From: Amanita rubescens
Taxonomy: Eukaryota > Basidiomycota > Agaricomycetes > Agaricales > Amanitaceae
Length of the DNA stretch: 64,000 bases
Assembly: GCA_015039365.1 (NCBI GenBank)
Contig: WION01000051.1
Location: 1 to 64,000 of the forward strand
Direction: 5' to 3'
Shown in pieces: positions 23,222 to 45,256 of this stretch (position 1 is its first letter; every line of letters begins with the position of its first letter). The position numbers were made by a program, and so were the translations under genes. The notes beneath the pieces were generated by a model that ran no database searches, was not told where the DNA came from, and worked only from the letters and a program-made list of their open reading frames with translations.

Positions 23222-23544
23222 TGTCACGAGCCTTAGACAGGCTACACAACACAAGACTCAATTACTCCGGGGCTACTGCTGACCGTGTCAAGCAGCGAGG
23301 GCGTATACAAGAACCGTCGAGGTTCAGGGCAAAGGTAAGAAGGGGGCTCCGAGCTGTCCAAGGAAAGACTAGCTTGTTGCTTAGAGTATGTACTACAATA
23401 TACGCTACTTATACTACTCGGGGCGTAGGGTATGAGTCATAGGGTACAGGGTATGAGTCATACTATGTCATAGGGCGTAGGGTACATGAGTCAGTACATG
23501 CACGAAGCATGCGGCGTATCAAGGAGTAAAACAGGGGCTTGACA
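23222..23544 (-). repeat. 3' LTR of element A
   Basis: TGTCACG...CTTGACA in plus orientation, reading as identical to 29480-29802. Confidence 0.95.
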
Positions 23545-23898
23545 TAGCCTCCGTTTCAAGGTTCGGATTCCAGACGAACTGGAAGGGGATCCAAAAATTC
23601 GATGGTATGACAATTGGCACTCACGTTCTTCCTGATGCTCCTTCGTCTTTACCCGTTACCAGACCTGCGTCCAATGCCGACGGGAGGTTACTATCGAGTG
23701 CTAAGGTTAGGCCTTTCGACTTTCCACATAGGGGTCCGTCTCCAGGGTTCACCGAATACCCTATTGACATCTCGCGATTCCTCGTTTGAGGCGTCACCCA
23801 TGATCTTGCCTAGGCGCGTCCTCTCCCGATTCCTCGTTGTTTCTTTCTTTTTCTCTCCCTGTTCGTATTGGATCTTGTTGCTACAGGCATCAGTCACT

Positions 23899-26800
23899 TT
23901 AAACTGGTGTGGGTCCTTGCGACGAATTCGCTTCTTCGCGTGCGCTCTTCCAGCGTTGCCAGTTCCTTTCGAGTTTTCGTCGGTATTCTTCGTCGAAAGC
24001 CTTGTCATCCCACCCATAAAGGCGCGGATGTGGAATATAGAGGGGGAGGAGGTGCGGAGGTGTCGGCGTCGGCGGTCCAGAGGGGGTTGGAGACAGGGAT
24101 GATGGGGGAAGGAGGGGAAGGGGTTTGTTTTGTCGTAACGCTGAAGGGTTCTTCTTATAGTATTCCCTTATCGCCTTCTTCGCGTTCTCCATGTGTTCCT
24201 CGGGTTCCCAGGTGTTCTCTTCTTCGGGTAACCCTTTCCATTTTACCAGGAAACGTTTCCCTTGCCTCGTTTTTCTTACCCCTTTTACGGCTTCCACTTC
24301 GTATTCTTCACGTCCATTAATGATTTCCGGTGGCGGCCGTGGTTCGTTTTCCTTCTGCGCCGGGAATTGCGGTTCATGAACTGGTTTAAGTTTCGACTCG
24401 TGGAAGACGTCGTGTATCCCCCATGTCGGTGGTAATTCCAGTTTATACGCTGATTTCCCTACTTCGGAAATCACCTTGAAGGGTCCGTGGAACTTTGCGT
24501 CGAGCTTTTTTGATGTCCTTGTTGTTTTAATTTTGGACGCATCTAGATATACTCGATCTCCTGGTTGATACCGTCGGGATGGTTTGACGTGTTTATCGTG
24601 TTGTCTTTTCATCCTTTCGGCGGCTTGCTCCAAGTTCGCTTTCACCGTTTTCCATGTCTCTTTGAATTTTTCGATATATTCCGCAGCCGAGTGGTTCGTC
24701 GTTTCCGTTTTCCCTTCCGTTCCCTTGAATGGATTTCGTCCCGTTGTAATCATGAAAGGGGAAAACCCTGTCGCTGAATGTCGTCGATCGTTATGGCAGA
24801 ATTGAGCTATGGGGAGCCAATCTGTCCAATCGTCTTGTTTTTCGTTTACATACATTCGCAGGTATTCTTCCAATTCTTGATTTACTCGTTCTGTTTGTCC
24901 GTCCGTTTGTGGGTGATACGCCATTGAAGGGTTTGCTTCTATCCCTAATATTTGGTATAATCCTTTCATAAATCCGGATACGAATTGCGTTCCTCGATCC
25001 GATATGACCTTTTTTGGTAGTCCTTGTTCCTTGAATACATGTTCCCGATAAAGGTTTGCTACTCCTTGCGACGTTATCGTTGTATTGCATGGGATAAAGT
25101 AAGCCTTTTTCGAGAACCGGTCGACAATTACCAAGATCATATCTTTTCCCTTTGATGGTACTAATGGTCCGATGAGGTCCACGCTGATTACTGCCCATGG
25201 TTCTGACGGGATTTCGTTTGGCTGTAATGGCGCCGCTCGTGGTTGTCTATCGGGTTTATTGATCTGGCATTGATGACACGCTTTGATGTACGTTTCAATG
25301 TCCCGTTTCATATTAGGCCACCAGAATCCTCTTGTTGTTAATTCCAAGGTTTTTGCGACTCCTGGATGTCCTGCCGTTTTTACGTCATGGTTCGAACTGA
25401 TTACCCTTTCTCGGATTTCCGGTTTCGCTGGTACGTATATTCTTCCTTTCCATTCCCAGCATTGATCGAGAGTGTCGTATTTGAAATCCGGGTCCTTTTC
25501 TTTTATTCCTTTGATTACTTGTTTATCGAAATATCGACGATGTGTGTTACGAATTTCTTGTCGAATACTTAGCCATTCGTAACTTTCGTCATCTATTCTG
25601 ATTTCGATTTTTCCGAATATATCTTCTTTTAGGAGAATGATTCCTTCGTTATCGTTTTCTCCTTTCGGATGTCCGGCTCTTCTAGATAATATATCGGCTT
25701 TAGTATTTGTTTTCCCGGATCGATGTTTTATGACGAAATTATACTCTTGCAGATCCATGATCCATCGGGCTTGTCTCCTGTTCAGGTTTTGCGGTTTTCG
25801 GAAATATGTAAGGTTTTGATGATCTGTCAATACTTCCGTTACCGTTTCTGTTCCTTTTAGGTAATGAGCCCAATCGTAAAATCCTTGCATTACCGCTAGC
25901 ATTTCTTTATCATATACTTCGTAGTTTCTTTCTGCGTCGTTTAATGCTTTTGATATGAATGCTACGGGTTTCCAAATTCCGTCGTCGTCGAGTTGAGAAA
26001 GTATCGCCGCAATTGCAAAGTCCGATGCGTCCGTTTCCATTCGGAAGGGTCTTCCTGGTTTAGGGATGATGAGGACCCTTTCGGAGGCGATTTCCCTTTT
26101 TAGTCCTTCGAACGCTTCCTGTTGTAATTCCGTCCATAACCATTCAATTTTTCCCGTAAGTTTTGTTAATGCTTTCGCTATCTTCGCAAAACCTTTAATG
26201 AACCTTCGATAGAAGTTGACAAATCCGAGGAATTGTTGAAGTTCCCTTTTTGTTGTTGGCGTTGGCCATTCGGCTATTGCTTTCACTTTATTAGGGTCCA
26301 TCCGTATTCCTTTATTTGAAATGATCAATCCTAGGAATTCGATCTCTTCTTGCTCGAAGTAACATTTCTCCGCTTTTAGGGAAAGTTGGTGTTTTCGTAA
26401 TTTTTCGAGGATTCTCTTGACTTGTTCTTGATGTTCCTTCTTGTCTTTTGAGAATACTAGGATGTCATCCATATAGATTACGACCCATCCTTCGGCAATT
26501 TCTTCTCTAAAGATATCATTCATCATTGTTTGAAATGTTGCTGGTGAATTGGTTAATCCGAAGAACATTACTAGCGGTTCGAATAGTCCACGATTCGTTC
26601 GGAACGCGGCTTTCCATTCGTCTCCTTCTTTGATCCTGATGTTATTGTATCCCCATCTTACGTCCATCTTCGAGAAGTATTTTGCTTCCGATAATTTGTC
26701 AATTAATTCCGAGATTAACGGTAACGGATATCTATTTTTGATAGTCATTTCGTTTAATTTCCGATAATCTTGGACTGGTCGTAGTTTTCCGTCTTTCTTT

Positions 26801-27987
26801 TTTACGAAGAAGAATGGCGATGCCATGGGCGATTTACTTGGTTTGATCCTTCCCGTTTCTAATTGTTCTTTTAGGAATTCGTCCAATTGTTTTTGTTCTT
26901 CCGGGTTTAATGGGTATATTTTGCAATCCACCATTTTTGCTCCTGGTGTTAATTCGATCGCGTGGTCCCATGCTCTTCTTGGCGGTAATTGGTCGAATGT
27001 CTGTTTTTCGAATACTTCTTTGTAGTCGCGGTAGACTTCCGGTACTATTTCCTTCCAGGTCCTCTCGATTTGGTTGGCTCCTGCAATATCGGTTGCAAAG
27101 TTTGATTTTGCTCGTACTTTTATCCAAGGAAGGTCAACGTGTCGTATAAATTCGGGTCGATCAATATCAATGGCCAGTATTTTGTCTTCTTCTGGATTAT
27201 ATTGATCGATTTCGTCTTCTGGTTCTCTGACCCATGATTCGTCGTAACATTCTCCTGGACATTTTGAGAACTTTATTTGGGCCTTTCTCCATTCGATTTC
27301 TGGGTTATGATGTTCTAACCAATCGTGTCCGAGGAATACGTCTTTCTTTCCAATATTTACCACCGCTAGTTCTAGCGTTTCTTCATGGTCGTAAATTCTC
27401 ATTTTGATCGTGACCATGTCTGTTATCTTTCCTCCGACGTTTAATGTTCCGTCGGCGTTAGTGGCGGTTATCGCTCGTGGTAGTTTGGTTGTGTTGATTT
27501 TATGTTCCTCGACAAATTGTTTGGATATCGCAGACATCATGCATCCGCTGTCGATTAATGCTATGGTGTCGAAGCTTTCTTCTGTATCCAGGGTGGTGAG
27601 GATGATTCGTATATCCATTTCCCTGTGTCCTGATGCTCCGATCCATTGCGGTTCTCTGAGTTTTCTCAAATACCAAATTGCTTCTTCTTCTTCGAGATCA
27701 TTGATTTTATTGATTAATTCTTCATCAATTTGTTCTCTGAAGGTTTGGTGGGCGAATGTTCGTAATTGTGTAACTCCTTGTTCCGGGTATTTCCATAATT
27801 GTCTTATCATCCATGCGGACGATGAATTTCTGAGTTTACTTGTTTTGTCCCTTATCGATGTGTTTCGAATCTTTCCTTCCTTTTGTTTCACCTCGTATAT
27901 TATTGATTCAAGGGATACATATTCGGAAGGTACTAGAGATTCATAAATACATCGATCGGAGATCAACGAAGAGGGACTATCCTTCAT
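23899..27987 (-). CDS. Pol polyprotein of element A (PR-RT-RNaseH-INT-chromodomain), 1362 aa
   Basis: Domains in order: retropepsin with ALIDSGCMMSA (about residue 145); reverse transcriptase with KMDVRWGYNNIRI and VVIYMDDILVFS (YMDD about 505); RNase H starting METDASDFAIAAILS (about 650); integrase with the HHCC finger (HPGVAKTLEL...CHQCQ, about 885-930) and the core VISVDLIGPL, VISDRGTQF, TDGQTERVNQELE supplying D, D and E; and a C-terminal chromodomain (FLVKWKGLPEEENTWEPEEH, about 1250-1300) that in this group targets heterochromatin. Length is normal for a chromovirus. The ATG at 27987 overlaps the gag stop as ATGA. The pol frame is also open upstream into gag, allowing a -1 frameshift at 27999-28005. 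All catalytic residues I could check are present. Confidence 0.95.
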   Translation of the reverse strand: MKDSPSSLISDRCIYESLVPSEYVSLESIIYEVKQKEGKIRNTSIRDKTSKLRNSSSAWMIRQLWKYPEQGVTQLRTFAHQTFREQIDEELINKINDLEEEEAIWYLRKLREPQWIGASGHREMDIRIILTTLDTEESFDTIALIDSGCMMSAISKQFVEEHKINTTKLPRAITATNADGTLNVGGKITDMVTIKMRIYDHEETLELAVVNIGKKDVFLGHDWLEHHNPEIEWRKAQIKFSKCPGECYDESWVREPEDEIDQYNPEEDKILAIDIDRPEFIRHVDLPWIKVRAKSNFATDIAGANQIERTWKEIVPEVYRDYKEVFEKQTFDQLPPRRAWDHAIELTPGAKMVDCKIYPLNPEEQKQLDEFLKEQLETGRIKPSKSPMASPFFFVKKKDGKLRPVQDYRKLNEMTIKNRYPLPLISELIDKLSEAKYFSKMDVRWGYNNIRIKEGDEWKAAFRTNRGLFEPLVMFFGLTNSPATFQTMMNDIFREEIAEGWVVIYMDDILVFSKDKKEHQEQVKRILEKLRKHQLSLKAEKCYFEQEEIEFLGLIISNKGIRMDPNKVKAIAEWPTPTTKRELQQFLGFVNFYRRFIKGFAKIAKALTKLTGKIEWLWTELQQEAFEGLKREIASERVLIIPKPGRPFRMETDASDFAIAAILSQLDDDGIWKPVAFISKALNDAERNYEVYDKEMLAVMQGFYDWAHYLKGTETVTEVLTDHQNLTYFRKPQNLNRRQARWIMDLQEYNFVIKHRSGKTNTKADILSRRAGHPKGENDNEGIILLKEDIFGKIEIRIDDESYEWLSIRQEIRNTHRRYFDKQVIKGIKEKDPDFKYDTLDQCWEWKGRIYVPAKPEIRERVISSNHDVKTAGHPGVAKTLELTTRGFWWPNMKRDIETYIKACHQCQINKPDRQPRAAPLQPNEIPSEPWAVISVDLIGPLVPSKGKDMILVIVDRFSKKAYFIPCNTTITSQGVANLYREHVFKEQGLPKKVISDRGTQFVSGFMKGLYQILGIEANPSMAYHPQTDGQTERVNQELEEYLRMYVNEKQDDWTDWLPIAQFCHNDRRHSATGFSPFMITTGRNPFKGTEGKTETTNHSAAEYIEKFKETWKTVKANLEQAAERMKRQHDKHVKPSRRYQPGDRVYLDASKIKTTRTSKKLDAKFHGPFKVISEVGKSAYKLELPPTWGIHDVFHESKLKPVHEPQFPAQKENEPRPPPEIINGREEYEVEAVKGVRKTRQGKRFLVKWKGLPEEENTWEPEEHMENAKKAIREYYKKNPSALRQNKPLPLLPPSSLSPTPSGPPTPTPPHLLPLYIPHPRLYGWDDKAFDEEYRRKLERNWQRWKSAREEANSSQGPTPV

Positions 27988-29321
27988 TGATCTTTCACAA
28001 AACCCAATTTCTCTTTCATTTCCGTCTTTTCTTCTTCGGTCATTGATCCGAAGTAGTCTCCTACAGCTTGCCTTCTAATCACGGTTTTTCCTTTGCAGTA
28101 TTTTGTGATGTGACCGATTTTTCCACAATTATAACATTTTGGCGGAGGTCGGGTTGTTGGTGTTTGGTCGACATCCATTGCGTTTTCGTCTTTGACTTTA
28201 ACCGTGATCGTTTCTTTCTTCGGTTGGCTCGGTCCGGCTTGCGCGTTCGTCCTAGTTACTTTAAATTCTCTTTTGCCATAGTATCTTTCGGCTTCTCGGA
28301 ACTGTTTTTCTATTTCCGTGGCCCTGGTGTACCATGCTTGGAGTTGTCCTGGCGCGCTACCGTCTCCGGGATTTCCTAATTCAATTACTCTTCGGCCTAC
28401 TCCGACTTTGACACCTTTCTTGAATTGGTCGATTAAGGCGATTTCATCGAAGCCTGAGAGCTGGGCCCATCCTTTGAATTCGATAATATATTCTTCGATG
28501 GTTTTATCTCCTTGTTTTAATTCCCGTAATTTCTTTATTGCTTCGTCCCGGGTTTCCGTTGTGAGGAAGTATTGTCTTGCTTCTTCTGCGAATGTGTTCC
28601 AGTTTACAAAGGGGGGTTTATGAATGAAGACATATTCTTCCCATGCCGGATGTTCTGGGGTCGCTTCTTCTGCCGGTACCATTGTGCATGCCTGGTAATG
28701 GGTACAGGTTCGTCCCGGGTAGGTGTTTGCGAACCTGATCCTTTCTTCGTCGTTCTGGGCAATTTCTCCTATTTTTCCGTTTGCCCAGTTTGATGCTCGG
28801 TTTCCTTTCCCTTTCCGGATTCGTTGGATTGCATATGTGACCCGTGCGATGTCATCCGTTAACCTTACTTGGACGAAGTAATAATTCATCCTTCTGAGCC
28901 ATGAATCGATTTCCGCCGGTTCGCCTTCGTAATGTTCCGGTGGTTCTATCTTTAATTCCGGTGGTCGTGTCCTAAGCCTGTCGGCGTCTCTATCGGCTCG
29001 TTCTGCCGCACGTCGTTCTCGTCCGAGTTGTCTTTCAAACTCTTGTTGTTGCTGGGCTAGTTGTCGTTGGAAGTTTTCGTTTTGTACCCGTAGTTGTTCT
29101 ACAACAGTCGCAATACTTGCTCCCATTGCTGCTGCAGCAATAGTTGCGTCTTCGGTTTCCGTTGCGATTGTTTCTATTGTGGGTACGGCCGTTGTCGAGA
29201 TTGCTCCGGTGATATCTCCGTGTTCGTTGAAGGTTGGTTGGACAACCTGTATCCTGTTTCGTCTCATGATGTATGTGAATCCTGCCAGCGCGATCGCAGT
29301 GAGCGCAGCTGGTAGGGCCAT
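27984..29321 (-). CDS. Gag of element A, 445 aa
   Basis: ATG at 29321. A hydrophobic N-terminal stretch is followed by a coiled Gln/Arg/Glu segment (about residues 80-120) and a retrotransposon Gag core (PPEHYEGEPAEIDSWLRRMN; WNTFAEEARQYF, KLRELKQGDKTIEEYIIEF). A single CCHC knuckle CYNCGKIGHITKYC (about 395-408) provides nucleic-acid binding. The frame ends KLGFVKDQ-TGA. The GGT TTT codons of GF form the slippery heptamer for Pol expression. No break is seen. Confidence 0.93.
   Translation of the reverse strand: MALPAALTAIALAGFTYIMRRNRIQVVQPTFNEHGDITGAISTTAVPTIETIATETEDATIAAAAMGASIATVVEQLRVQNENFQRQLAQQQQEFERQLGRERRAAERADRDADRLRTRPPELKIEPPEHYEGEPAEIDSWLRRMNYYFVQVRLTDDIARVTYAIQRIRKGKGNRASNWANGKIGEIAQNDEERIRFANTYPGRTCTHYQACTMVPAEEATPEHPAWEEYVFIHKPPFVNWNTFAEEARQYFLTTETRDEAIKKLRELKQGDKTIEEYIIEFKGWAQLSGFDEIALIDQFKKGVKVGVGRRVIELGNPGDGSAPGQLQAWYTRATEIEKQFREAERYYGKREFKVTRTNAQAGPSQPKKETITVKVKDENAMDVDQTPTTRPPPKCYNCGKIGHITKYCKGKTVIRRQAVGDYFGSMTEEEKTEMKEKLGFVKDQ
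27999..28005 (-). promoter_or_regulatory. Candidate -1 frameshift heptamer G GGT TTT (element A)
   Basis: In gag register the codons are TTG GGT TTT GTG. Slipping back one base gives GGG TTT TGT GAA AGA TCA ATG, which is the open pol frame. The gag stop follows five codons later. Confidence 0.7.
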
Positions 29322-29465
29322 GATTTAGCGGGTGTTTGGGGTTGTGTAGAGTTGTTGATGTATTTGTGCAATATAAACTGCAACAAGGTAGAGGTATGTG
29401 AGGTGTGCTATCAGGGCGATAGCAAGGAAGATCCGTAGGAAATTCGTGGTGAGTGGTGTGAAGAA

Positions 29466-29477
29466 AAGCAACAAGCT
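29466..29477 (-). promoter_or_regulatory. Self-primer binding site of element A
   Basis: On the element strand AGCTTGTTGCTT starts 2 nt inside the 5' LTR edge. Its exact complement AAGCAACAAGCT begins at 29640 in the LTR, 31 nt after the TATA box (TATAAG, 29671-29666), where the RNA should start. Confidence 0.75.
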
Positions 29478-29479
29478 TA

Positions 29480-29802
29480 TGTCACGAGCCTTAGACAGGC
29501 TACACAACACAAGACTCAATTACTCCGGGGCTACTGCTGACCGTGTCAAGCAGCGAGGGCGTATACAAGAACCGTCGAGGTTCAGGGCAAAGGTAAGAAG
29601 GGGGCTCCGAGCTGTCCAAGGAAAGACTAGCTTGTTGCTTAGAGTATGTACTACAATATACGCTACTTATACTACTCGGGGCGTAGGGTATGAGTCATAG
29701 GGTACAGGGTATGAGTCATACTATGTCATAGGGCGTAGGGTACATGAGTCAGTACATGCACGAAGCATGCGGCGTATCAAGGAGTAAAACAGGGGCTTGA
29801 CA
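29480..29802 (-). repeat. 5' LTR of element A
   Basis: 323 bp with TATAAG at 29671-29666 (minus strand). Direct copies of GGGTATGAGTCATA-like motifs lie in the upstream (U3) part and are possible regulatory sites. Confidence 0.95.
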
Positions 29803-30093
29803 ACTATCTAAGAGGCACTGACAGATGCTGACACACTAATTATCTGACTGTCTGACTATCTAATAGGCACTGACAGATGCTGACACACTGATTATCTGAC
29901 CGTCTGACTGTCTGAGAGACACTATTTCATAAGTTGTCTCACTTGTCTGACTAATTGTCTGAGAGACACTTAAGCATCAGACAACATCAGACATGATCAG
30001 ACTTTTGCTGTGTTACTGCTGATGTACCTCTGATCACAAATACTAGTAGTGGCAAGTTATTGGTATGCCTGGGCCAGAAAGAAAGCCTGTTAG
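29803..30093. repeat. Tandem TGTCTGACTG repeats, 52-bp period
   Basis: ACTATCTAAKAGGCACTGAC recurs 52 bp apart (29803 and 29855), followed by degenerate copies. Continuation of 22890-23221. Confidence 0.7.
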
Positions 30094-30527
30094 TGTTACA
30101 AACGTACGTCATGGCCTATCTTTTTCTTACATATCTTATCACTTCCGTTATCCCTCCTACGTCACTGTTTGCATACGTGTTCCTTCTGGAACATTCATCG
30201 TTTATCATATGCTACTTCATTTTATCACATGCATGTCAATTATCACATGTAAACCGTTGCATTATCACATGTGACCGTTTCATTATCACATGCATTCCTA
30301 CTTACTATATTTGCGTATGTACCTTGTACTATATAAGACACGCAAATATACAACTAGACCTCAGTCTAGTTTTAACAGTCAAAATCTGTCTCGTTATCGT
30401 CTAAGCTCCCTTGAGGACTTATCTGATAACACTCTTATTCTTTGAACATTCTTAAGTGCCGGAACTCCCTTGAGGAACCTACAGTACCTGATAGGCTTGA
30501 CTTATTAGTGAACGAACAAATGTAACA
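30094..30527 (+). repeat. 5' LTR of element B
   Basis: 434 bp, TGTTACAAAC...ATGTAACA, with TATATAA at 30330-30336. Several TATCACATG repeats lie upstream of the TATA. Confidence 0.93.
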
Positions 30528-30528
30528 A

Positions 30529-30540
30529 TAAAACTAGACT
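30529..30540 (+). promoter_or_regulatory. Self-primer binding site of element B
   Basis: TAAAACTAGACT, 1 nt inside the LTR, is exactly complementary to AGTCTAGTTTTA at 30363-30374 in the LTR. That stretch starts 33 nt after the TATA box. Confidence 0.75.
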
Positions 30541-30588
30541 CCTCTCCGAGCATGATAGCTTTAACGCTCTCACCTCCCATCATTCACC

Positions 30589-32365
30589 ATTGCTCCACGA
30601 CAATCTAAAAGTACCCCTCTGAATAATGCCAAACGAAACCCCCTTGACCATCTCTATTATCTTGACAAACATTCCATTCATTGGGATAAACGAGAAAACA
30701 GCTGGTGTTATATCGCTTCAGGAAAACCCATACCAGGTCACCAGTTTTGGGTAAAACAAAAACTTGGAAGACCGCCAAATCAATCCTTCCCATTTGAAGG
30801 AGGATTATACCTAAACGAACACAAACTTGCCTTCCACGAAAGCAGTAAACGTTGGTACGCCACTGAATCGGAAACAGGAGAAGAACCGTACTTTATTAGA
30901 GATGAATATTTCGAAGGAGAACCCTTCGTAGGAGGAAAAGAGGAGTTATCACGAACCGCGCTACAACGTTGGAAGAAAGCGAACGAACCAGAAACCGTAA
31001 CCGCAAGTCAAGAAACTCCTGTCGCATCACCACAAGTCCATTACAGAGAAAGCGCTGAACCGTCAGGAGAGTCCGATAAAGAAGACGATAAAGACCCTTT
31101 TTCTGAACAAGAAAAAGAAGAAGAATCCCAGGATAAACTTGAATACGCACCTGGAACCGAAGACATTGTTATACCCACAGTCAAACAACGAGTTGAAGAT
31201 GAAACCTCAGCTCAACTCATTGCTTCCTTATCCCTTGTAACCGAATCAAAACTCGAAGCTACACGACCTGCACCATTACCCCCTGTTACTTTTCCATACT
31301 TGTCTACCCCACCAATCAATCCATTTCCCTCTAAGAAAGGAAAAGAACGAGATATGAGTGGATCTGGATCAGGACCCCGAACTGAACCAAGGTCAGATCT
31401 ACCGAAGATCAAACCTCCTAAACCATTTGAAGGAGATCGAAAATATCTCAATCCGTTCTTAGCAAAAGCCGAATTATTCATGAAAATGAATAAGATGACA
31501 GATGCCCAAGATGATACAGTTCATCATGTACCATATCGATGGCAATGCTCAACAATGGCGCGACAACAAAATAACTGAATACGACGCCGAAACAACAAAA
31601 TATGCCAATTATGATGCTTTTGTTAAAGAACTAAAGGAAGATTGGGGACAAGTAGATGAACCAGGACTAGCAATGCACAGATTACTCACATGGAGAAAAC
31701 TCCCGAAGCAATCAATTAATCAATATATCGCACGCGTCGATCGAGATCTTAATCTAGCCAAAGTCACCGATGATACGACAAAATGTCATCTCCTAGTTTT
31801 GGGATTACCAAACACCTTACGAGAAAAACTACGGCTAGGAGGTGCTCCGACGACCTATAAATCATTACGAACTCGTATCCTTGACATAGAAGTGGCGAAC
31901 ACGTTATTCTCCACTTTTGGCCAAGCTAAAGAACTTGACGACAAAATGGAAGTCGACGAGGCCGTATTAGAATTAAACCGACAAGCGCGACGAATGCAGA
32001 TTGCAGAAACCTCCATGGATTGGGTAAAAACCGCTGTATGTTATGGATGTGGAAAAATAGGACATTTAATCTCTGATTGCCCAAATCCCAAAAAGAAACG
32101 ACAAAACCTTGGGAATTCACGAAGAAAGGCAAAACCTAGAGGACAGTTTCGAGGAAAACCACACGGACGAAACAATGACAAAGGAAAAGGAAAAGGACAA
32201 AGAATCAGAGCGCTGGATGCAGATAGCGACGAAGACGACAATGGCTCGTCAAGTGAAGAATCCGACAGTGAAAACGAAGAAAACCAGAGAATCGCCGTCA
32301 TACGAGAAATGGCGAAAACATTACCATGCAGCGCCCGCCGAAAACTAAACAAAAAGGGTTTTTAG
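30589..32365 (+). pseudogene. Gag of element B (broken)
   Basis: The frame opens near 30565. The likely original start context now reads ACC ATT GCT at 30586-30594, so the ATG seems lost. About 230 residues of an unusual N-terminal extension (KPIPGHQFWVKQKLGRPP; acidic DKEDDKDPFSEQEKEEE) precede the Gag core. A single-base deletion near 31505 moves the frame, after which IQFIMYHIDGNAQQWRDNKI and FVKELKEDWGQVDEPGLA follow. One CCHC knuckle is present (CYGCGKIGHLISDC, about 32038-32080), then a basic stretch and an acidic Ser-rich tail. The frame ends KKGF-TAG at 32365, on the frameshift heptamer. Confidence 0.85.
32356..32362 (+). promoter_or_regulatory. Candidate -1 frameshift heptamer G GGT TTT with adjacent TAG (element B)
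   Basis: Codons are AAG GGT TTT TAG. A one-base slip gives GGG TTT TTA GGA and then the pol frame (interrupted at once by a TGA). The same heptamer sits next to UAG in barley yellow dwarf virus RNA, a well-known -1 site. Confidence 0.7.
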
Positions 32366-35300
32366 GATGAGACGACGATGAATCGGCGTCCACCGTCTCT
32401 GAAGACGAACAATTATGTATAAATGGTGTAACAGTATCATCTATGTCCAGAAATAAAATCACCATTCCCATTACCCAATGTTCGAATCTGAAAACCGCTG
32501 AAACCAAGGCCCTTATCGACTCAGGCGCGCAAGGAAAATTCGTCAATAGTTCACTCGTCGATTGGAACAAAATCACCCGCTTAAAGAAACCCATCCCAGT
32601 GTGAAATGTGGACGGAACAAATAACAAGTCTGGAGATATACGGTATAAAATCCAGATAAGCTATAACATCGAAGACAACCGGTTTAAAGACTGGTTTTAT
32701 GTCACACGACTAGGCGATCAATGACTGATACTAGGATTACCTTGGCTCCGAGAAATCAACCCCAGAATAGATTGGTCTGAAGGAACGGTTAGGTTCCCCG
32801 ATGGTAGGAAGATCAATCCGGAAGAAGAAACTACGTTTGATTATGACGAAGAAACCGAAATGTATCTTCGGTATATCCAAAAAGAAGAATTGGACGCAGA
32901 TGAAGACGAAGATCTCGAGACTGATCACCTTTGGATCCAAGCAAAAATGTCAGTGTCTCAAGCGCTCACACATGAACATGAAGACAAATCTACAAAAGTA
33001 GAATTACCCCCTGAATACGATAAATGGAGAAAAGTTTTTGATAAACAGACATCGGAACGATTTCCCATTTCATGACAATGGGATCATGTGATAGATCTAA
33101 AAGAAGGGTTTAAACCTAAAGTGGTGAAGAACTATCCATTATCAATCCATGAGGAACAGCTAATGAATAAATGGGTCAACGAACAACTCAAAAAAGGTTA
33201 TATTCGACCATCACAATCTCCGCAGGCGTCTCCTTTCTTTTACGTCGCTAAGAAAGAAAAAGGAGAGTTGAGACCCTGCCAAGATTATCGATACATCAAT
33301 AGCTGGATGAAACGGAATGCCTACCCCCTTCCTTTAGTATCCGACTTATTATTAAAACTACAAAAAGCGAAATATTTCTCCAAGTTAGACCTCCGATGGG
33401 GTTACAATAATGTGCGAATAAAGAAAGGTGACAATGGAAGGCCACATTCACGATGAACCATGGCCTCTTCGAACCTACCGTAATGCTTTTTGGATTATGC
33501 AATTCACCGTTGACATTTCAAATGATGATGAACGAATACTTCCGCAACATGATAGCCGAAGGATGGCTAGTCGTCTACATTGACGACATGTTGATATATG
33601 GAACAAACAAGGAAGAAATGAGGGAGCGCACTCAGCAAGTCTTGCAACGGCTAAAAGAAAATGATCTATTCCTGAAACTGGAAAAATGTAAATTCGTCGC
33701 CAAGGAAGTCGAATTCCTTGGGATGATCGTTAAAGAAGGAAAGATCATGATGGACCCCGTAAAACTTGCTGGAATCAGCAAATGGCCTGAACCAAAAACC
33801 GTTAAACAAATACGGTCATTTCTAGGGTTCGTGAATTTTTACAGGAAATTTATAGGAAACTATGCCAAAATAGTGGCTCCGCTCACGGAACTTACAAAGA
33901 AAACAGTTCCCTACTGATGGGATGCAGAGTGTCAGAAAGCATTTGACACGTTAAAGGAGAAATTCCTAGAAGAACCGGTTCTAGTTATGCCAGATCCGAC
34001 GAAACCGTTTTTGTTAGAGACCGATGCGTCAAATTGGGTGGTAGGAGCCGTCCTGAAACAACGGGGATCTGATGGAGAACTGCACCCATGCGGATTTATC
34101 AGTCATCAGTTAAGCGATACCGAACAAAGATACCAAGTATACGATCGCGAGTTATTAGCAATAAAGAAAGCATTTGAAACCTGGAGACACCTTCTTAAAG
34201 GAAGCCCACATACAATTATGATCCACTGTGATCATAAGAATTTATCATATTACAAACATCCGCAGAAGATGACTGCCAGACAATCACGCTGGTGGCAAGA
34301 AATCACGGAGTTTGATATCAAGTTAGAACACGTCCCTGGATCAAAACATATTCAGGCAGACGCTCTATCAAGACGCCCTGACCACATTAATGAAGAAGAA
34401 GCAAAAGCAAAAGAAATCCCACAAACCATGATCACCGATGACATGGTTATCGCCGCAATCAATGTATCTTGGGCAGATAAGATTACCGAATTATTGCCAC
34501 AAGATAAATTTGCTAAAGTTGTAATTGACGGTCTTAAACACGGAAAGCTACCCCTCCGATCAAAGTTTAATGACTGGAAGAACGACGACAACATCATTCG
34601 TTATCAAGGACGTGTTTATGTCCCTCAAAACGAAGAATTACAAAACGAAATAATCAAGTCGCATCACGACCCCGTAGTTATGGGTCACCCTGGATGATTA
34701 AAGACACTAGAGCTAATCCGCCGTGACTATTATTGGCCTGGAATGACAACAACTGTATCTAAATGGGTCGAAGGCTGTGCCTTATGTCAACAAATGAAGG
34801 TTAATACACATCCGATCACACTGGGTTTGATGCCTATTAAATCCCACGCCACACGCCCATTCGAACAAGTTTCAATGGACTTCATCACAGATCTGCCAAT
34901 TATCAACGGTTTTGATTCTGTTTTGACCGTGGTCGATCAAGGCTTAACAAAGGGCGTAATATTCATACCATGCAAAAAATCTTTTACCACTATGGATACC
35001 GCCAATTCTTACATTAACGATGTTTACAAACGTTACAGGTTACCGACAACCCTCATCTCCGATAGAGGACCACAATTTACCTCCAAAGTTTTCGAAGAAA
35101 TCTGCAAAATCTTCAGAATTGATCATAGAAAGTCGACCGCCTTTCATCCGCAAACTGACAGAGAATCGGAACGACTCAATCAAGAGCTAGAAACCTACCT
35201 CCGGTTATACTGCGTTGATCATCCAAAACAATGGAAAGATCACTTGCCACTAGCAGAATTCGCGCACAATCAACGCGTACATCAATCTACCAAGATGACG

Positions 35301-35717
35301 CCGTTTGAAATTATGTTTGGAATAGAACCTGTGGCTATCCCCACAGCATTCCCGCGAATCAACGTACCCGCCGCTGAAGACCGCTTCAAGGTCTTAACGC
35401 AAATACGAGACGAAGCTCTCGCCGCACACGAACTAGCTAGACAGCTAATGATGACTCAACATGTCAAAGGGAAATCTCCCACATTTAAAGAAGGAGATTT
35501 GGTATGGCTAGACTCACGAAACCTGAAAACAGGACAAATAAGAAAATTCTCACCTAGACGAGAAGGACCGTTCAAGATCGAGAAGATCTTAGGACCTGTC
35601 ACTGCTAAACTTGAACTTCCCCCAAGATGGAAGATTCACCCCGTTTTTCATGTTTCACTCCTTACTCCTTACCACAAGAATGAAACACATGGTCCAAACT
35701 TTACAAGACCAACCCCA
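32366..35717 (+). pseudogene. Pol of element B, upstream part (PR-RT-RNaseH-INT)
   Basis: Retropepsin KALIDSGAQGKFV (about 32512); RT with [13 protein letters not shown] (about 33390) and [12 protein letters not shown] (YIDD about 33580); RNase H starting LETDASNWVVGAVL (about 34017); integrase with HDPVVMGHPG, CALCQQMK, SMDFITDLP, LISDRGPQF and TDRESERLNQELE. It has six in-frame TGA codons (32368, 32602, 32722, 33073, 33915, 34695) and one single-base deletion near 33434 (GD-WKATF). No TAA or TAG occurs. Four or five of the TGAs stand where family members have arginine (for example VRNVDG, QRLILGLPW, GHPGRLK). The frame is cut at 35717 by element C. The last exon-like piece with the chromodomain is at 42457-42690. 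Confidence 0.9.
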
Positions 35718-36068
35718 TGTTACAATCATGTACTAGTATTACTCTTATGGACTATAGTTTACTTCATATGACTCACTATACCAGTCATATCACACAGCCC
35801 CCCATTATCACTTTTACTCACTCTGACTCATGTACAATACTACGTATGACTCAGTACCCACATATGACTCATACCTTAGGAGTATATAAACCCCAGTAGC
35901 TACGCTGTACTTCCCTAGCTTTAGCAATCTACTGCTACTCTGAATAACCCTCAGAGTCTGAACCTCTATTACCTTCCAACCTTTTGCTCACCGCTTAACC
36001 TTGGAACCTAATACGTTCTTCCACTTATACGCTGCCACTACCCAGCCTAAGTGTTGACCGCCGTTACA
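35718..36068 (+). repeat. 5' LTR of element C
   Basis: TGTTACAATC...GCCGTTACA with TATATAAA at 35883-35890. Confidence 0.93.
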
Positions 36069-36070
36069 CT

Positions 36071-36081
36071 TTGCTAAAGCT
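36071..36081 (+). promoter_or_regulatory. Self-primer binding site of element C
   Basis: TTGCTAAAGCT, 2 nt inside the LTR, is exactly complementary to AGCTTTAGCAA at 35917-35927 in the LTR. That stretch starts 34 nt after the TATA box. Confidence 0.78.
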
Positions 36082-36739: not shown

Positions 36740-36741
36740 CC

Positions 36742-37896
36742 GTGGCAACTATCAACGTAAAAGCGCCGAATCCCAGAACCGTAGAATGAGAAGCGTGGGA
36801 TAAATATTGGGCAGTAGAACGTGAAAACCCGTTTGTAGAAGATGCATATTTGCTCACAAGTAACAAACTTAAAGAGTGGGAGAAGTACAGACAGAACTAC
36901 ATCGACGAACACCTAGCAGAGGAACTATCAAAGATGTCGACATCAGATAAAGATGACTTGCCTAAATTATACAGGCAAATCACTCATGATCCCGGAGAAT
37001 ATGATGGGAACAGAGTTAAATTTGAAGAATGGTGGAGCAACATGCAACTCCACATGTTGGGATATGATAAACTCCCAGAGAAAGGAAAGATCGTTGCCAT
37101 ATTGACACAATGCGCCGAAGGGGAAGCAGCCTCATGGGCACAAGTGAAGAGAGAAGAAGTTATAAATAACAAATTAACATCATGGAGTCAATTCAAGAAA
37201 GATCTTGAAGCAAGGTTCTCCGATCCAACCAAGGAACAGAGAGCCCTTAACGAAATACACAACTTTGTGCAAGGAAAGCTCTCAGTACAATTGTATCTCG
37301 ATAAATTCAAACAGCTGAAAGTAAGATCCAAGATCTCAGATACAGATGCACTATATTTAGTCAAGAGAGGGTTGACCCCGGCCATCATGAATAAAGTTTA
37401 TGGGAATGATGATGATATTCCCACCGATTATAATGAGCTGTCCAAGAAACTCAGAAAGATTGGCACCAATTTAGACATCGCCCAAGGATATCAGCGATCA
37501 GCTCCAGGAGCAACCAATATTAATGGATCGAACAATCAAAACCCCAGATCTGATACCAAAACAGGATCAGGTACCACATTTGGCGGATCAGGAAAGCCAA
37601 TGGAAGTAGATCGAACAGGACCCCGATGCTATAATTGTGGAAAGTTTGGTCACATTGCCAAAGAATGCAAAGGGCCCAAACGAGAGAAAGGAGCATGTTT
37701 TGAATGCGGAAAGATGGATCATCGTGTAAACGACTGTCCTGTCAAGAAGAAGAAAGATGCAATCAAAGGAAAGACAAAGAAGGTCGAAGAAGAACCCAAA
37801 CAGGAAGATGAATCGAAGGAAGAGATAGAAGTCGAGGAGCAACCTGAAGGAGAGTATGAAGAAGAAGAAGTGGATTTTACGAACGGGGACGAGTAG
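36742..37896 (+). pseudogene. Gag of element C, one TGA
   Basis: The frame after the TAA at 36733 reads (T)VATINVKAPNPRTVE, TGA at 36787, [20 protein letters not shown] and onward. The expected ATG is GTG at 36742. The Gag core has [39 protein letters not shown] and [15 protein letters not shown]. Two CCHC knuckles follow ([14 protein letters not shown] and [14 protein letters not shown]), unlike the single knuckle in A and B. The tail is basic, then acidic, and ends DFTNGDE-TAG. The TGA stands between E and E in a charged stretch, consistent with an arginine codon CGA. Everything after it is open. Confidence 0.88.
37872..37878 (+). promoter_or_regulatory. Candidate -1 frameshift heptamer G GAT TTT (element C)
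   Basis: In gag register GTG GAT TTT ACG. It lies inside the only gag/pol overlap (about 37860-37893), and the -1 frame runs without a stop into pol. GGAUUUU is the -1 site of red clover necrotic mosaic virus. Confidence 0.65.
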
Positions 37897-40800
37897 GTGC
37901 CATACTCCCCCAAGATCAGTATTCACGGACAATAAAGAATATTTCATGTACCCCTAAGTTATTGAAATCAAAGATTAACTTATTAAAAAACCGTGAATGC
38001 GAGGCACATGTAACGATATCGCCAAGAACTATGAAGAAAGTTCCACATGTTGTAACAGTCAAAGGATTAATCCACATTGGGAATAGAAAGTGGGGAAAAT
38101 TCCACCCTGAAATCGATAACGGATGCCAAATAACATGCATAAGTCCAAAATTGGTCAGAAAGTTTGGCTTAAAAAGAACGAAACTTAATACACCAATACC
38201 AATGTCAAATGCAGATGGAACACCAAATCGACAAAAAGAAGCAATGCATGTAGCCAAATTGACAATGAAAATAGACTCCCATAAAGAAAACATGGAAGCT
38301 CTAATTTTAGATATCGGAGACAATGAGATGCTACTAGGACAAGATTGGTTGTTGGTACACAATCCAACAATCAATTGGCAGACACGAGAAGTAAAGTTTA
38401 GCAGATGCCCAAAGAAATGTGGCGCCATCATTAAGAAGATAATAGAACCAGAAAAAGATGAAGATGGGATCTTGAAAGGAATAATGCCCGATTATGTCAA
38501 ACCATATAAACACATGTTTGACAAAGTAAATTTCGATAAACTACCTATCAGAAGGGAATGGGACCACAAAATCAACCTATTACCGAATGCACCGAAAGAA
38601 ATCCCTGTGAAGAACTTCAGGCTGACACGAGAAGAAGAAAAAGCCGTAGATGAGTTCCTTGATGGAGAATTAAAAGTTGGAAAGATCCGCCCATCCAAGT
38701 CCCCATATGCAGCTGCTTGCTTTTTCATCTTGAAGAAGGATAAATCGAGAAGACTAGTGCAAGACTACCGAGGAATTAACAAATATACGATCAAAGATAA
38801 AACCCCCCTACCACAAATAGATGATCTAATCAACACACTAGCTGAAGGGAAAATCTTTACGAAAATGGATATTATATGGGGATACAACAATGTGAGAATC
38901 AAAGAAGGACATGAAGAACGAGCAGCCTTCCTAACCCCAAGAGGGTTGTTTGAACCCCTAGTTATGTATTTTGGGTTGACAAATTCCCCTGGAACGTTTA
39001 TGAGAATGATGTCAACAATCTTCCGAGATATGATCCGAGATAAGAAATGTGTTATCTACATGGACGACATTGTCTTCATCGGTAAAACAAAAGAAGAATT
39101 GCAACATCATACGATAGAAGGATTGAAAATCCTGGAAGAACATGACCTTTATGTGAAAGAAAAGAAATGTTATTGGGAAGTAACAGAGGTACCAATGCTT
39201 GGACATATTGTGGGAAATGGACAAGTACAAATGGAACCGAACAAAATTAAAGTTATCCTCGATTGGAAAGATCCAACATGCAAGAAAGATGTTCAGAAAT
39301 TCAATGGATTTTGCAACTTCTACCGAAGATACATAAAAAGATATTCTGATGTTGCAAAACCAATAACTAGATTAATGGGGAATAGACCATTCAAATGGGA
39401 AGACGAAGAACAAAAAGCCTTTAAACGAATGAAACAGTTAGTAGCATCAGAAGAAGTCATTACCTTACCGATTGCCGATGGAAAATACCGAGTAGAAGCA
39501 GATGCATCTGGATACGCAATAGGAGGAACCCTATCCCAATTACAGAATGGAAAATGGAGAACGGTTGCGCTCCTCTCACGATCAATGTCCGATGCCGAAT
39601 TACAATATGACATATACGACAAAGAATTACTAGCAATAGTATGCGCATTAAAGGAATGGCGACCCTATCTATTAGACGCAGCAGAACCATTTGAAGTATG
39701 GTCCAATCACAAAAATCTCTCCTATTTTAGGAAACCACAGAGATTAAATGGACGACAAGCCAGATGGTATCTAGAACTCCAAGACTACAATTTCGAAATC
39801 AAACATATACCTGGAAAAGCAAATACAAAAGCGGACATTTTGTCTCGTTTACCTTGGTATAAAAACGAAATACCAGAACAGAAAGACGTAACTCTATTAG
39901 ATAACACCCACTTCACCAAGAAAGTAACCACCCCAATACAATTGTTCATGGAAGAACAATTTTTGAAGGGAGGTGAAACCCTTTCAACCAAACAAATTGA
40001 AATAAAAACATCATTGGATAAATTAATCAAGACGTCTAAACGTAGAGAAACTGAAGTCCTAAAGAGACAAAAGGAGAAACCAAACCTATTTAAAGAACAT
40101 GATGGACTATTATTATATGAAAACAGAATCTATGTTCCAGACGAAAAGCTTAGAGAAAAAGTTTTTCAAACCTGTCATGACTCTCCAATAGCAGGACACC
40201 CCGGAATAACCAAAACAGAAGATTTAATTAAACGAACCTATTGGTGGCCTTCCCTTTCAAAGGATGTGAAAAAATATGTCAAGGGATGCGATCTATGCCA
40301 AAGAAACAAAGCATCACGACAACCAAAAGCGACAACCTTACACCCACATGACATTCCAAAAGAGCCTTGGGAAAGCATCTCAGTTGATATTGTAGGACCC
40401 CTGCCTGAATCAAAAGGGTATAATGCTATCTTGGCAATAATCGACAGGTTCTCAAAAATGATTAGATTAATTCCCACGACAACAGAATTATCCGCCGCCC
40501 AACTAGTAGAAACATACAAAGATCAAATTTGGAAAATTCATGGAATCCCTAAAAAGATCACAAGCGATAGAGGACCCCAGTTTGTGGCACAACTGATGAA
40601 AGATCTTTGCAGTGCTATAGGAACAAAACAAAACCTATCCACGGCATATCATCCCCAAACTGATGGACAAGTAGAACGATCCCATCAAGAAACCGAAACT
40701 TTCTTACGACATTATATAAACTATCTCCAAGAAGATTGGGCTGATTGGCTAAGTATAGCCGAATACCAATACAATGATAAAGTTCACTCAGCCACCGGTC

Positions 40801-41444
40801 ACTCCCCTTTCTTCCTTAATTACGGCAGGCACCCCTGGAAAGGAGAACCGACTATACCCAAAGAAGGGAATGCATCAATCAATGATTTCATCGAAAAACT
40901 CCAAAACATACAAGAAAATGCCGCTACTGCGATAAGAAAATCCCAAGAAAAAATGATACAAAATTATAACCTAAGAAAGAAATCACCCATAGATCATAAA
41001 GAAGGAGACAAGATATGGCTAGAAGCCACAAACATCAAAGACGCTAGACCGTCAAAGAAACTCTCTGCTAAACGATATGGACCATTTAAAATATTAGAAA
41101 AAATCGGACAAGCTGCATACAAAATAGAATTACCAGAAACATGGAAATTGATTCACCCTGTATTCCATGAATCTCTTCTCACACCATATACCATACCAAA
41201 GTTCCCGAGTCAAAAGAAACACCCCCCGCCACCCCCTGAGGTGATTGGAAACGAATTAGAATATGTCATTGAGAAAATTCTTGATTCCAGAAAACGCAAA
41301 CGTGGGAAGTCTTCTCATGTCGAATTTCTGATCAAATGGAAAGGCTATGACTCAGAACACAATGAATGGGTAACAAAGAAACATGTTCACGCACCAGAAC
41401 TTGTTGCAGAATTCCGAAAAAGGTATCCCCTGAAGGTATATTAA
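37879..41444 (+). CDS. Pol polyprotein of element C, open from the frameshift site
   Basis: The frame is open from about 37860 to the TAA ending at 41444. Its first ATG is about 38030, inside the protein, so expression as a Gag-Pol fusion is expected. Counting from 37962: retropepsin at about residue 50 ([13 protein letters not shown], where DSG or DTG is usual), RT ([29 protein letters not shown] about 365), RNase H ([14 protein letters not shown], about 510), integrase ([12 protein letters not shown]...CDLCQRN, about 745-775; [33 protein letters not shown]) and a chromodomain ([18 protein letters not shown], about 1115). There is no internal stop. The DNG protease triad is the one clear defect. 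Confidence 0.92.
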
Positions 41445-41548
41445 CCCCACCTTCAACCAAGGAAAGACAACAAGCTGCACTGGCACCATTCATTAAAAAA
41501 CCTCGCTTCTATTTCATCTCTGAAACATTCTCCTCCTTTTATCTCGCA

Positions 41549-42118
41549 ATGGCCACCAACCCCTCTGCCACCGCCACCCTCACCAAAACCCTCTCCGCCA
41601 GCACCTTCGTCTCCCACCTTCACACCATCATTGCTGAATATTTCGGCTTCTGTTCCAATGTCCGGATGGCAGCCACCTACGACATCCCCCTTACCACCAC
41701 CTCCGAGGAACGAGATGTCTTGAGACGTACGGCACAAATGGTAGCGGATGAGAACGCCCGGATCGACCTCGTCATTGAGGCCCTTAAAACAATCAAAACG
41801 TATAATGACAACTTCATCCGAGCCCACGACCCCGACCATCCCTCGATCTCCCGTAGCCGCTGGTGACTCCCACCAGGCAAGGTCTTCTCAAACCTCGTCG
41901 CCTGTAACAATTTCGCACTCGGCACCGCCCATGATCTTGACATCGACGAGCTCACCGACCTAGAGCTCCTAAACTTCGCAGATCAGGTATCTAGCACAAC
42001 CCCTAACTCCCCCGCATTTACCCAACTCTTACACGACATTTTTGGTAGTGATTCCGAGGAAGAAATCGTTGTGGACAACGATTCTTGGGAGGGAGATAAT
42101 GTTACGATCATGTACTAG
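41549..42118 (+). pseudogene. Third ORF of element C, unknown, one TGA, ends inside the 3' LTR
   Basis: ATG at 41549, 105 nt after the pol stop. It reads MATNPSATATLTKTLSASTF, SHLHTIIAEYFGFCSN, TTSEERDVLRRTAQMVADEN and RSRW, then TGA (41864), then LPPGKVFSNLVACNNFALG, an acidic DELTDLELLNFAD tail, and a stop at 42118, 18 bases into the LTR. About 190 codons. No motif is recognised. The TGA falls at a likely arginine (RWR). It sits where env-like or accessory ORFs lie in other LTR elements, but it has no signal peptide or membrane segment. Confidence 0.6.
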
Positions 42119-42451
42119 TATTACTCTTATGGACTATAGTTTACTTCATATGACTCACTATACCAGTCATATCACACAGCCCCCCCATTATCACTTTTAC
42201 TCACTCTGACTCATGTACAATACTACGTATGACTCAGTACCCACATATGACTCATACCTTAGGAGTATATAAACCCCAGTAGCTACACTGTACTTCCCTA
42301 GCTTTAGCAATCTACTGCTACTCCAAATAACCCTCAGAGTCTGAACCTCTATTACCTTCCAACCTTTCGCTCACCGCTTAACCTTGGAACCTAATACGTT
42401 CTTCCACTTATACGCTGCCACTACCCAACCTAAGTGTTGACCGCTGTTACA
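42100..42451 (+). repeat. 3' LTR of element C
   Basis: TGTTACGATC...GCTGTTACA, near-identical to 35718-36068 with one extra C and a few substitutions. Confidence 0.93.
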
Positions 42452-42456
42452 CCCTG

Positions 42457-42690
42457 GACCTTATAGATAACAAAGAAGAATACGAAATCGAGACAATTGT
42501 CTCGCACCGAAGAAAAGGAAACCAATGGCAATTTTTAGTCAAATGGAAAGGTTATCCGACATCTGACAATTCATGGGAAACCGAGGAAAACCTAGAACAC
42601 TCCAAGGAGACCTTAAACGAATATAAGGAACAACATGGAATCACAGCAATCATCCCCACTACTCGTAAACCACGAAAACGCCGCTCTTGA
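42457..42690 (+). pseudogene. Chromodomain end of element B Pol
   Basis: It continues B's pol frame after element C: DLIDNKEEYEIETIVSHRR, QWQFLVKWKGYPTSDNSWE, EENLEHSKETLNEYKEQHG, RKPRKRRS-TGA. The aromatic cage residues of a chromodomain (Y, W, W) are present. The stop may itself be a decayed CGA. Confidence 0.88.
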
Positions 42691-44815
42691 AACCATGTCC
42701 TCTCCCATTGACAACCTATCCGCCGCTGCTACTCCAGCCGCCACAACAGTCGTTGAGGAAACCATCCCTCCGACCCCTTCTAGAGAGGAATCACCTGCAC
42801 CATTGCCAATTCCTCCTCCCATCTGTATGTTACATTGCACATCTATCACTACGGAATGGTTCCCTATAATTCCTTCTGACGAGGAATTCATACCACGAAA
42901 TGAAGATTCTTTATCTTCTGATTCGTCCTATACCTTTCCACCATCAAACGCTTCTACGATAGAAGAGCTAATGCGAAACGTCACAGATATGGGGAACGCT
43001 ATCCTCCCTGATACCCCTGTGCCACCTGAGATGCAGGAAATGGTAACTCAAGTGTTCACCACCAGAGACCAGCTGGTCATCACCTATGCACGCAGACCAC
43101 GTCCTGACACTACCTCTGCCGATATCCGGATCCTACGAGAAGGATTACTCATGTTCAATACCACCGCCTTCACTTTGGGAATTCCTCCCATCGACGAAGA
43201 ACTTGTCAATAATTACTTTGAAAGAGCAAGAACCATCGCTGCCACCAATGCCACTACCGCCGCTGCCATTTCTGCTGCCACCAATGCTGTTGCCGCTGAA
43301 ATCGATACTGTCGCCGCTAACACCACTATCGATGACGAGATCAATGAAAGACTCGTCAATCCCATCTCAATCCCTATCGTCTTCCCAGAAGACACTCCAT
43401 CACTGAGACCCCTTTACACCCCATTAGATTTAATGAGGGAAACCCACGCTCGATCTATGAGCCCAGTGCCTAGACTCCCTGCTGAAGGACCTATTCCTAG
43501 GTTCTTGTTTCAGCATGCTTCCACCCTTGACGACAACTTCAACGTACCCGCACCTGACATTCCCGCTATAAATGTCATCTTGACGCACTACACCGTCCCC
43601 TCCTTCGTCGACCTGATTATTCGACGAGCCTTTTACCAAATCTGGACACTGTTTACGTCCTGGACTTTTGCCAACAATTATCTGTTCATCTTGAATAGAT
43701 ATGTTTGCCCCGATCTGATGGCCCTCGTTAACGTCATCATTAACCTCACCCGCCGGTTCCGAGAACTGCACCGCAACCGCTGGATCACCCTGATGATCTG
43801 GAACAATATCCACTGGTTCTGCGATTTATGAGGAGATGTATACCTCGAGGAAGCAGTCCGTCTTACCACCGCCAGACATCGACACCACTTTATCCAACCA
43901 ACACGACAACCTGCCTTAGACACTGGAATGGCCTGGATGCACGGACGCCCTGTATTTCCCTGCACTCCTGTCATCACTACGCTCAAACGTATTCGAACCC
44001 TTAGCGACCATCTCAACCCGATGTTGACCCCCGATGGTTGGGATATAACCATATTACGACAGCTACAAACGACGATTAACAATCTCGTATGGAGACATGA
44101 TCGTAATCCTAACAGACCCAATGCCAGTAATGAATATCAAGATGCCGCCATCATTGCACTTCAAACAGGACATACCATTGAAGGACGCGACGTCCCTATC
44201 CCTGAAAACCCAGTCCGCCGCACTATCTTCCATCTCCATGGACCTGATCCAAGTGCTGAGCGATTAGTATCATTCGAACCGAACAACTTAGCCTTCGACG
44301 GAGAAGATATTCCCGGAACTCAAGGCTGTTACATATGCGGAGCCTTGCATCATACTACCGAACACCATTGACGACGAGAAATACGCCGAGGACCAGAACA
44401 TGAGGAAACCCCTCCTCCCACTTATCCCGACGCTGTAACGCAACTGCCACCCACACTGTTTGAACAGATTCTGGAACAACGGGTCTCTACCACAGCATCT
44501 ACCTCCAGTGTTAATACCGCCCAACTCGAACAAGGTGAACCTTCTCCCCTTATCGCAAGAAGACAACGAGGAACAAACACTCGCCCCCCAGGTGATTGTT
44601 TTACTACTACCACCGGACCCCCACCATCACGACGAAACCTTGGAAACCGCCAAGGCCAATCTACACAAGGACAGTCAACATGACCTGTTGCCACCATGAC
44701 CGCCTCGAACACACGAGAAGAGCGACCGACTCTTCAAGAACGACTCACTGACAACCGCCACCGCCGCCGTCATCCCTGGCAAGGAAATGAGGACTCTTAC
44801 GTCTACCATATGTAG
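42635..44815 (+). pseudogene. Long third ORF of element B, unknown, with zinc-knuckle-like motif
   Basis: ATG at 42635, in the +1 frame and overlapping the pol end by 56 nt. The frame runs 727 codons to TAG at 44815, with three TGA codons (43829, 44369, 44681) and no TAA or TAG. It has a Pro/Ser/Thr-rich N-terminus, an Ala/Asn/Thr-rich helix (about residues 195-235), and a Trp/Phe-rich block (FYQIWTLFTSWTFANNYLFI ... RWITLMIWNNIHWFC, about 335-398). After about residue 550 comes CYICGALHHTTEHH (CX2CX4HX4H), like a retroviral knuckle with the last Cys replaced by His. The C-terminus is Arg/Gln-rich. No family is recognised. One idea is a second nucleic-acid-binding structural protein. It lies just before the 3' LTR, so it belongs to the element. 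Confidence 0.7.
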
Positions 44816-44826
44816 GAGAAGGGCTA

Positions 44827-45256
44827 TGTTACAAACATACATCATGGCCTATCTTTTTCTTATCTTATCACTTCCGTTATCCCTCCTACGTCACTATTTG
44901 CATACGCGTTCCTTCTGGAACATTCATTGTTTATCATATGCTACTTCATTTTATCACATGCATGTCAATTATCACATGTAAACCGTTGCATTATCACATG
45001 CGACCATTTCGTTATCACATGCATTCCTACTTACTATATTTGCGTATGTACCTTGTACTATATAAGACACGCAAATATACGACTAGACCTCAGTCTAGTT
45101 TTAACAGTCAAAATCTGTCTCGTTATCGTCTAAGCTCCCTTGAGGACTTATCCGATAACACTCTTATTCTTTGAACGTTCTTAAGTGCCGGAACTCCCTT
45201 GAGGAACCTATGGTACCTGATAGGCTTGACTTATTAGTGAACGAACAAACGTAACA
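44827..45256 (+). repeat. 3' LTR of element B
   Basis: 430 bp, TGTTACAAAC...ACGTAACA. It lacks the ACAT present in the 5' LTR. Confidence 0.93.

Follow-up and report, generated by a model that had tools for sequence, protein, structure and literature searches.

Most LTR elements are primed by tRNA, and so is Ty3 of Saccharomyces cerevisiae, the element with the nearest solved structure by sequence (7q5b), which uses tRNA-iMet, unlike the self-priming that we propose here for three elements named A, B and C. In the closest described systems, known to us through excerpts of the papers cited, Tf1 takes the first 11 nt of its RNA as primer, RNase H cutting between nt 11 and nt 12 (PMC7175516, PMC10085805), and adopts a "pretzel" fold with two flanking duplexes (PMC10085805). 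The same excerpts present self-priming as a common feature of Tf1/sushi chromoviruses (PMC10085805), or as likely common among them (PMC6317226), and as shown for Tj1 (PMC4600332). It has been proposed for Tcn1 of Cryptococcus neoformans, with a possible novel priming for Tcn2-5 (PMC7175516), and is predicted for most plant Tcn1-clade elements (PMC6317226); for SM-Tcn1, a moss-related relative, neither tRNA priming nor self-priming is reported as found (PMC2864245). The mechanism itself is already in this literature, to which A, B and C add new elements.

The window, a stretch of 64,000 nt from Amanita rubescens, is part of a 240-kb contig in an assembly of 75.7 Mb. A, B and C are chromodomain Ty3/gypsy elements; A is on the minus strand; B and the element nested in it, C, are on the plus strand (Table 1). 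Gag, RNase H, integrase, SH3_Tf2-1 and the chromodomain were detected in all three, and protease and RT domains additionally in A and C, in which gag and pol are separate frames. The chromodomain (PF00385) follows the integrase in A pol and C pol. In B the insertion of C has separated it from the rest, and the coding region is split into several ORFs.

Like A, B and C, Tf1/Tf2 of Schizosaccharomyces pombe and the Tf1/sushi elements (Tj1, Tosmo1-3 and Tcry1) are chromodomain Ty3/gypsy elements whose predicted RNA start carries a primer of 11-13 nt, the complement of a primer binding site (PBS) just inside the 5' LTR. The present elements differ from them in the separate gag and pol frames of A and C, in family-specific primer letters and in their basidiomycete-like relatives, as judged by the names of a few matches (the relatives of A pol that carry names, a minority of the 120 listed matches, are Agaricomycetes, e.g., Armillaria, Trametes and Lyophyllum, which by themselves would point to a host of that kind). 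Their grouping with Tf1/sushi is based on SH3_Tf2-1, the chromodomain and the primer layout. Tcn1 is likewise a basidiomycete chromovirus, compared here by its published description.

Table 1. Features of elements A, B and C (window positions; primers, PBSs and the role of the U3 arm are predictions).
Feature	Position	Strand	Remarks
A 5' LTR	29480-29802	(-)	323 nt, TGTCAAG...GTGACA; TSD ATAGT (5 bp)
A 3' LTR	23222-23544	(-)	323 nt, 0 differences vs 5' LTR
A predicted self-primer AAGCAACAAGCT	29640-29629	(-)	predicted RNA nt 1-12; 3' LTR copy 23371-23382
A PBS (predicted) AGCTTGTTGCTT	29477-29466	(-)	2 nt past 5' LTR end
A gag ORF	27984-29321	(-)	445 aa; Retrotrans_gag
A pol ORF	23899-27987	(-)	1362 aa; protease, RT, RNase H, integrase, SH3_Tf2-1, chromodomain
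B 5' LTR	30094-30527	(+)	TSD GTTAG
B 3' LTR	44827-45256	(+)	14 differences vs 5' LTR, all transitions
B U3 arm AACTAGAC	30352-30359	(+)	complement of primer nt 2-9; role putative
B predicted self-primer AGTCTAGTTTTA	30363-30374	(+)	3' LTR copy 45092-45103
B PBS (predicted) TAAAACTAGACT	30529-30540	(+)	1 nt past LTR end (2 nt if taken as 11 nt)
B gag/pol remnants	31502-35771	(+)	several ORFs (gag, RNase H, integrase, SH3_Tf2-1); the final one continues into the C LTR at 35718
B chromodomain	42454-42630	(+)	PF00385, 2e-16; beyond C, far side
C 5' LTR	35718-36068	(+)	inside B; flanks CCCCA/CCCTG, no exact TSD
C 3' LTR	42100-42451	(+)	7 differences vs 5' LTR, all transitions
C predicted self-primer AGCTTTAGCAA	35917-35927	(+)	3' LTR copy 42300-42310
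C PBS (predicted) TTGCTAAAGCT	36071-36081	(+)	2 nt past 5' LTR end
C gag ORF	36850-37896	(+)	
C pol ORF	37962-41444	(+)	with chromodomain

The LTRs of A are identical, and A is thus young. The transition-only LTR differences of B and C fall mostly at CpG sites (11 of 14 in B, 4 of 7 in C), which suggests methylation-linked decay; both flanks of C could be derived from CCCCG via CpG loss. Between integrase and 3' LTR, B also carries ORFs of 398 aa (42635-43831) and 147 aa (43928-44371) that have no Pfam match at the cut-off and lie in an additional stretch, about 2 kb long, on the 3' side. D, a family described below, is also long, at about 7.8 kb from LTR to LTR.

The first-pass annotation of this DNA described three chromoviruses in which a sequence lying 1-2 nt inside the 5' LTR is an exact complement of a stretch of the element's own LTR. 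The chromodomains bear out the classification, and the complementarity was confirmed to the base, over 12 nt in A, 12 nt in B and 11 nt in C. The distances given there from a TATA box to the start of pairing (31, 33 and 34 nt) are each correct, and the full sets of TATA starts relative to that point are -31 and -20 in A, -57, -33, -31 and -16 in B, and -34 and -32 in C. In all three the first paired nucleotide is an A preceded by a pyrimidine. The twelfth pair of B falls inside the gap between LTR and PBS, so that A, B and C obey one rule: an LTR ending in ACA, 2 nt, then the PBS. Trimming of two nucleotides by integrase would account for this gap.

More chromoviruses were reached through matches to PF24626 (150 scored of 422 candidates). 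A complementary pair of 11-13 nt was found directly at the expected place in three of four fetched 5' regions, those of families H (L115), D (L116) and F (L118); the fourth (L117) fell outside the 5' LTR, and the stretch upstream of it (L119) is D-type. The H query also met family G, which is shorter, with a distance of about 2.9 kb between LTRs at several sites (contigs C358, C13, C25 and C62), and is probably non-autonomous. Its PBS region is about 85% like that of H, and in the G copy L120 primer and PBS are identical to those of H; since G retains both, the pair seems sufficient in cis.

Scans of prokaryote assemblies gave nine chromovirus contigs (L121-L129); being eukaryote-type chromoviruses filed under bacterial or archaeal assemblies, they are contamination of those assemblies. 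The contig L128, which begins inside a 5' LTR and encodes a pol 41% identical, has a 12-nt pair with different letters (CAGTCTCGACAA), a TATA at -31 and a PBS 2 nt past TGACA. It was the one true case in a looser pair scan of the nine contigs. Matches in L122 (10 nt) and L129 were taken as chance since no LTR end precedes them, and direct repeats in L126, considered as LTRs, proved to be repeated gag. The other six contigs gave no pair; among the eight contigs besides L128, no more than one or two include a PBS region, and none was shown to contain both primer and PBS. Scans of viral contigs found no relative.

Across families the layout is constant: LTR end, 1-2 nt, PBS, and a TATA box some 28-34 nt before the primer. 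The 2-nt spacing of A, B and C recurs in D, F, H, G and L128. LTR ends were verified by 3' LTRs for A, B and C (in the window) and D (via L130), were taken for H from matches that mostly end at query 437-440, and were placed for F, G and L128 by the ACA motif. The eight elements represent six primer types, D and F having a common primer and H and G another. When each PBS was compared with every LTR, it matched LTRs of its own primer type over 11-13 nt and those of other types over 3-7 nt. The earlier claim that primer and PBS co-vary holds between families. The search proposed there for compensatory changes within a family revealed none in the genome copies of A, B and C, because both sites are almost invariant there.

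This near-invariance was seen with queries of 231-241 nt spanning primer and PBS that were run against the genome (101 candidates in A, 311 in B and 23 in C, of which 40, 40 and 23 were scored), from which 30, 30 and 23 loci were read; the B copies compared are the best-matching members of a larger family. A PBS is present in 28 of 30 A loci, with 12/12 pairing in all 28, and in 30 of 30 B loci, with 12/12 pairing in 29; the exception (L064) has an A to G change that leaves 11 pairs and a G-U. For C, internal sequence is present in 5 of 23 loci, all with 11/11 pairing, and the other 18 have nothing internal after the LTR. L091 was considered as a divergent C copy and rejected, being a broken LTR. 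Among 27 distinct A copies, in a column count that leaves out L025 and L036, 119 of 361 columns vary and none of the 24 in primer and PBS does (P 4.6e-5). The corresponding figures for 29 distinct B copies are 91 of 381 and 1 of 24 (P 0.010), and the single variable column lies in the PBS, with none in the primer.

The positions, the exact and element-specific complementarity, its conservation and the lack of a canonical tRNA site argue strongly that A, B and C prime reverse transcription in the manner of Tf1, the primer being the initial 11-12 nt of the element's own RNA. We consider this very probable, and the Tf1-type self-priming suggested by the first-pass annotation is supported, all of its predictions that sequence can address having been borne out. 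The RNA start, cleavage, priming and rewriting are taken over from Tf1. Transcription would begin at the A that opens the LTR stretch, about 31-34 nt past the TATA, and the RNA 5' end would fold back on the PBS next to the 5' LTR. The RNase H of the element, a domain present in A, B and C and a candidate for primer cleavage, would cut where the paired stretch ends on its 3' side, and from the 3' OH so released RT would extend into U5. During later plus-strand synthesis the primer would be copied back into the PBS, so that within this proposal the two sites stay matched and a primer change in the LTR rewrites the PBS.

A host tRNA could instead prime at the site by its 3' end or an internal fragment, the LTR match being incidental; tRNA priming is, after all, usual for LTR elements. 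This is very unlikely here. The first 30 nt after the LTR contain no TGG in A, B, C, D, F or H, and over the first 40 nt it is absent from A, B, D, F and H and occurs in C only at offset 32. Our tRNA set was partial (23 fetched places, 19 of them confirmed by ARAGORN and covering Gly, Asn, Arg, Thr, Ile, Phe, Ala, Ser and Leu); initiator Met and others are absent from it, so the exclusion of a tRNA is not full, and the elements compared with it were A, B, C, D, F and H. Within it, the longest exact complement of a tRNA in the first 30 nt after the LTR is 7-9 nt, against 11-13 nt for the element's own LTR, and the best ungapped match of a PBS to a tRNA 3' end is 10/18, so that none surpassed the LTR stretch. 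It also speaks against an incidental match that elements whose PBSs differ find their partner only in LTRs that carry their own type of primer. Chance complementarity is scarcely credible. When the 25 nt after the LTR were shuffled by dinucleotides, the observed run was reached once in 5000 trials for A, H and G and never in 5000 for B, C, D, F and L128; with a longer LTR stretch the counts were 0/3000 for A and B and 3/3000 for C. The single success for A and the three for C are what chance has in its favor. However, the pair is in the same place in every element, so that even at about 1 in 1000 each the joint chance for three is negligible, and a blind scan met real families repeatedly, its other matches being single and fitting the 10.8 per shuffled set.

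It is also conceivable that the two stretches pair to form an RNA structure with a function in packaging, dimerisation or translation and not in priming. In predicted folds of the RNA from the primer onward, the pairs close the entire leader of A, B, C, D and H, the minimum-energy structures keeping all primer-PBS pairs at pair probabilities of 0.93-0.97; the F leader has 0 of 13 such pairs at minimum energy and a pair probability of 0.33. Such a role would leave unexplained the fixed place of the PBS 1-2 nt from the LTR end, the position of its partner at the expected RNA start and the lack of any other recognisable primer site, and we regard it as highly improbable. The extra duplexes of the Tf1 pretzel are not above chance overall; the U5-end duplex exceeds it nominally in A and D only. 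Shuffle P values for the U5-end duplex are 0.025 in A, 0.229 in B, 0.506 in C, 0.022 in D, 0.681 in F, 0.456 in H, 0.751 in G and 0.995 in L128, those for the post-PBS duplex range from 0.067 to 0.895 across all elements, and Fisher tests over six families give 0.052 and 0.54 for the two.

In A, B and C a second copy of the primer lies in the 3' LTR. Upstream of the primer in B, D, F, H and G, U3 contains an arm that is an exact complement of the primer or its first part over 8, 7, 8, 10 and 8 nt, respectively (shuffle P 0.014, 0.046, 0.076, 0.001 and 0.009). The same test found no arm in A (4 nt, P 0.52) or C (5 nt, P 0.31). By duplex energy, over 10000 shuffles, P is 0.023 for B, 0.155 for D, 0.030 for F, 0.009 for H, 0.007 for G and 0.0003 for L128. 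The last, the sole new case met after the arm had been noticed, has a 13-bp hairpin with one G-U that reaches primer nt 10, its longest exact run being 6 nt. The arm thus occurs in four of the six primer types (B, D/F, H/G and L128). Combined over A, B, C, D, H and L128, the Fisher P is 1e-4 upstream of the primer and 0.48 for the 60 nt downstream. The B arm is retained in 30 of 30 loci; in D/F, the count of hairpin variants covers only mismatch-free matches among those listed and has no bearing on arm conservation.

If the RNA starts at the primer, the 5' primer copy lacks the arm because transcription begins downstream of it. In predicted folds the primer is paired more in its 3' than in its 5' copy in B (0.74/0.38), D (0.71/0.31), F (0.72/0.53), H (0.67/0.53) and C (0.58/0.44), with the order reversed in A (0.49/0.57). 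We tentatively suggest that in many self-priming chromoviruses the arm may fold only the 3' copy into a hairpin. Such a mask would keep that copy off the PBS, so that only the 5' end could serve as primer, which would explain how an element avoids priming from the wrong end. The idea arose post hoc, the evidence for it is suggestive, and it is rather unlikely to be right as it stands; a promoter palindrome is the plain alternative. An RNA start further upstream, with arm and primer forming a 5' hairpin, was rejected: the H arm lies upstream of the TATA and so cannot be in the RNA 5' end. Our literature searches, of openly licensed papers, found no description of the arm and no paper on the avoidance of wrong-end priming.

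For a mechanism whose study has centred on fission yeast, this single fungal genome contributes five or more primer sequences. Each primer type amounts to a natural compensatory exchange of primer and PBS, and the constant layout yields exact predictions of RNA starts and cleavage sites.

Some of the loci read represent one and the same place. Contig C330 has B and C at the same spacing as the window, and L077-L079 have one flank in common; C330 and C585 therefore repeat the window region. The recurring B-C nest may represent separate haplotypes or a duplication in the assembly. Elsewhere in the window, Ty1/copia remnants (Retrotran_gag_2, RVT_2 and gag_pre-integrs) occur at 14066-17954 and 58464-61719.
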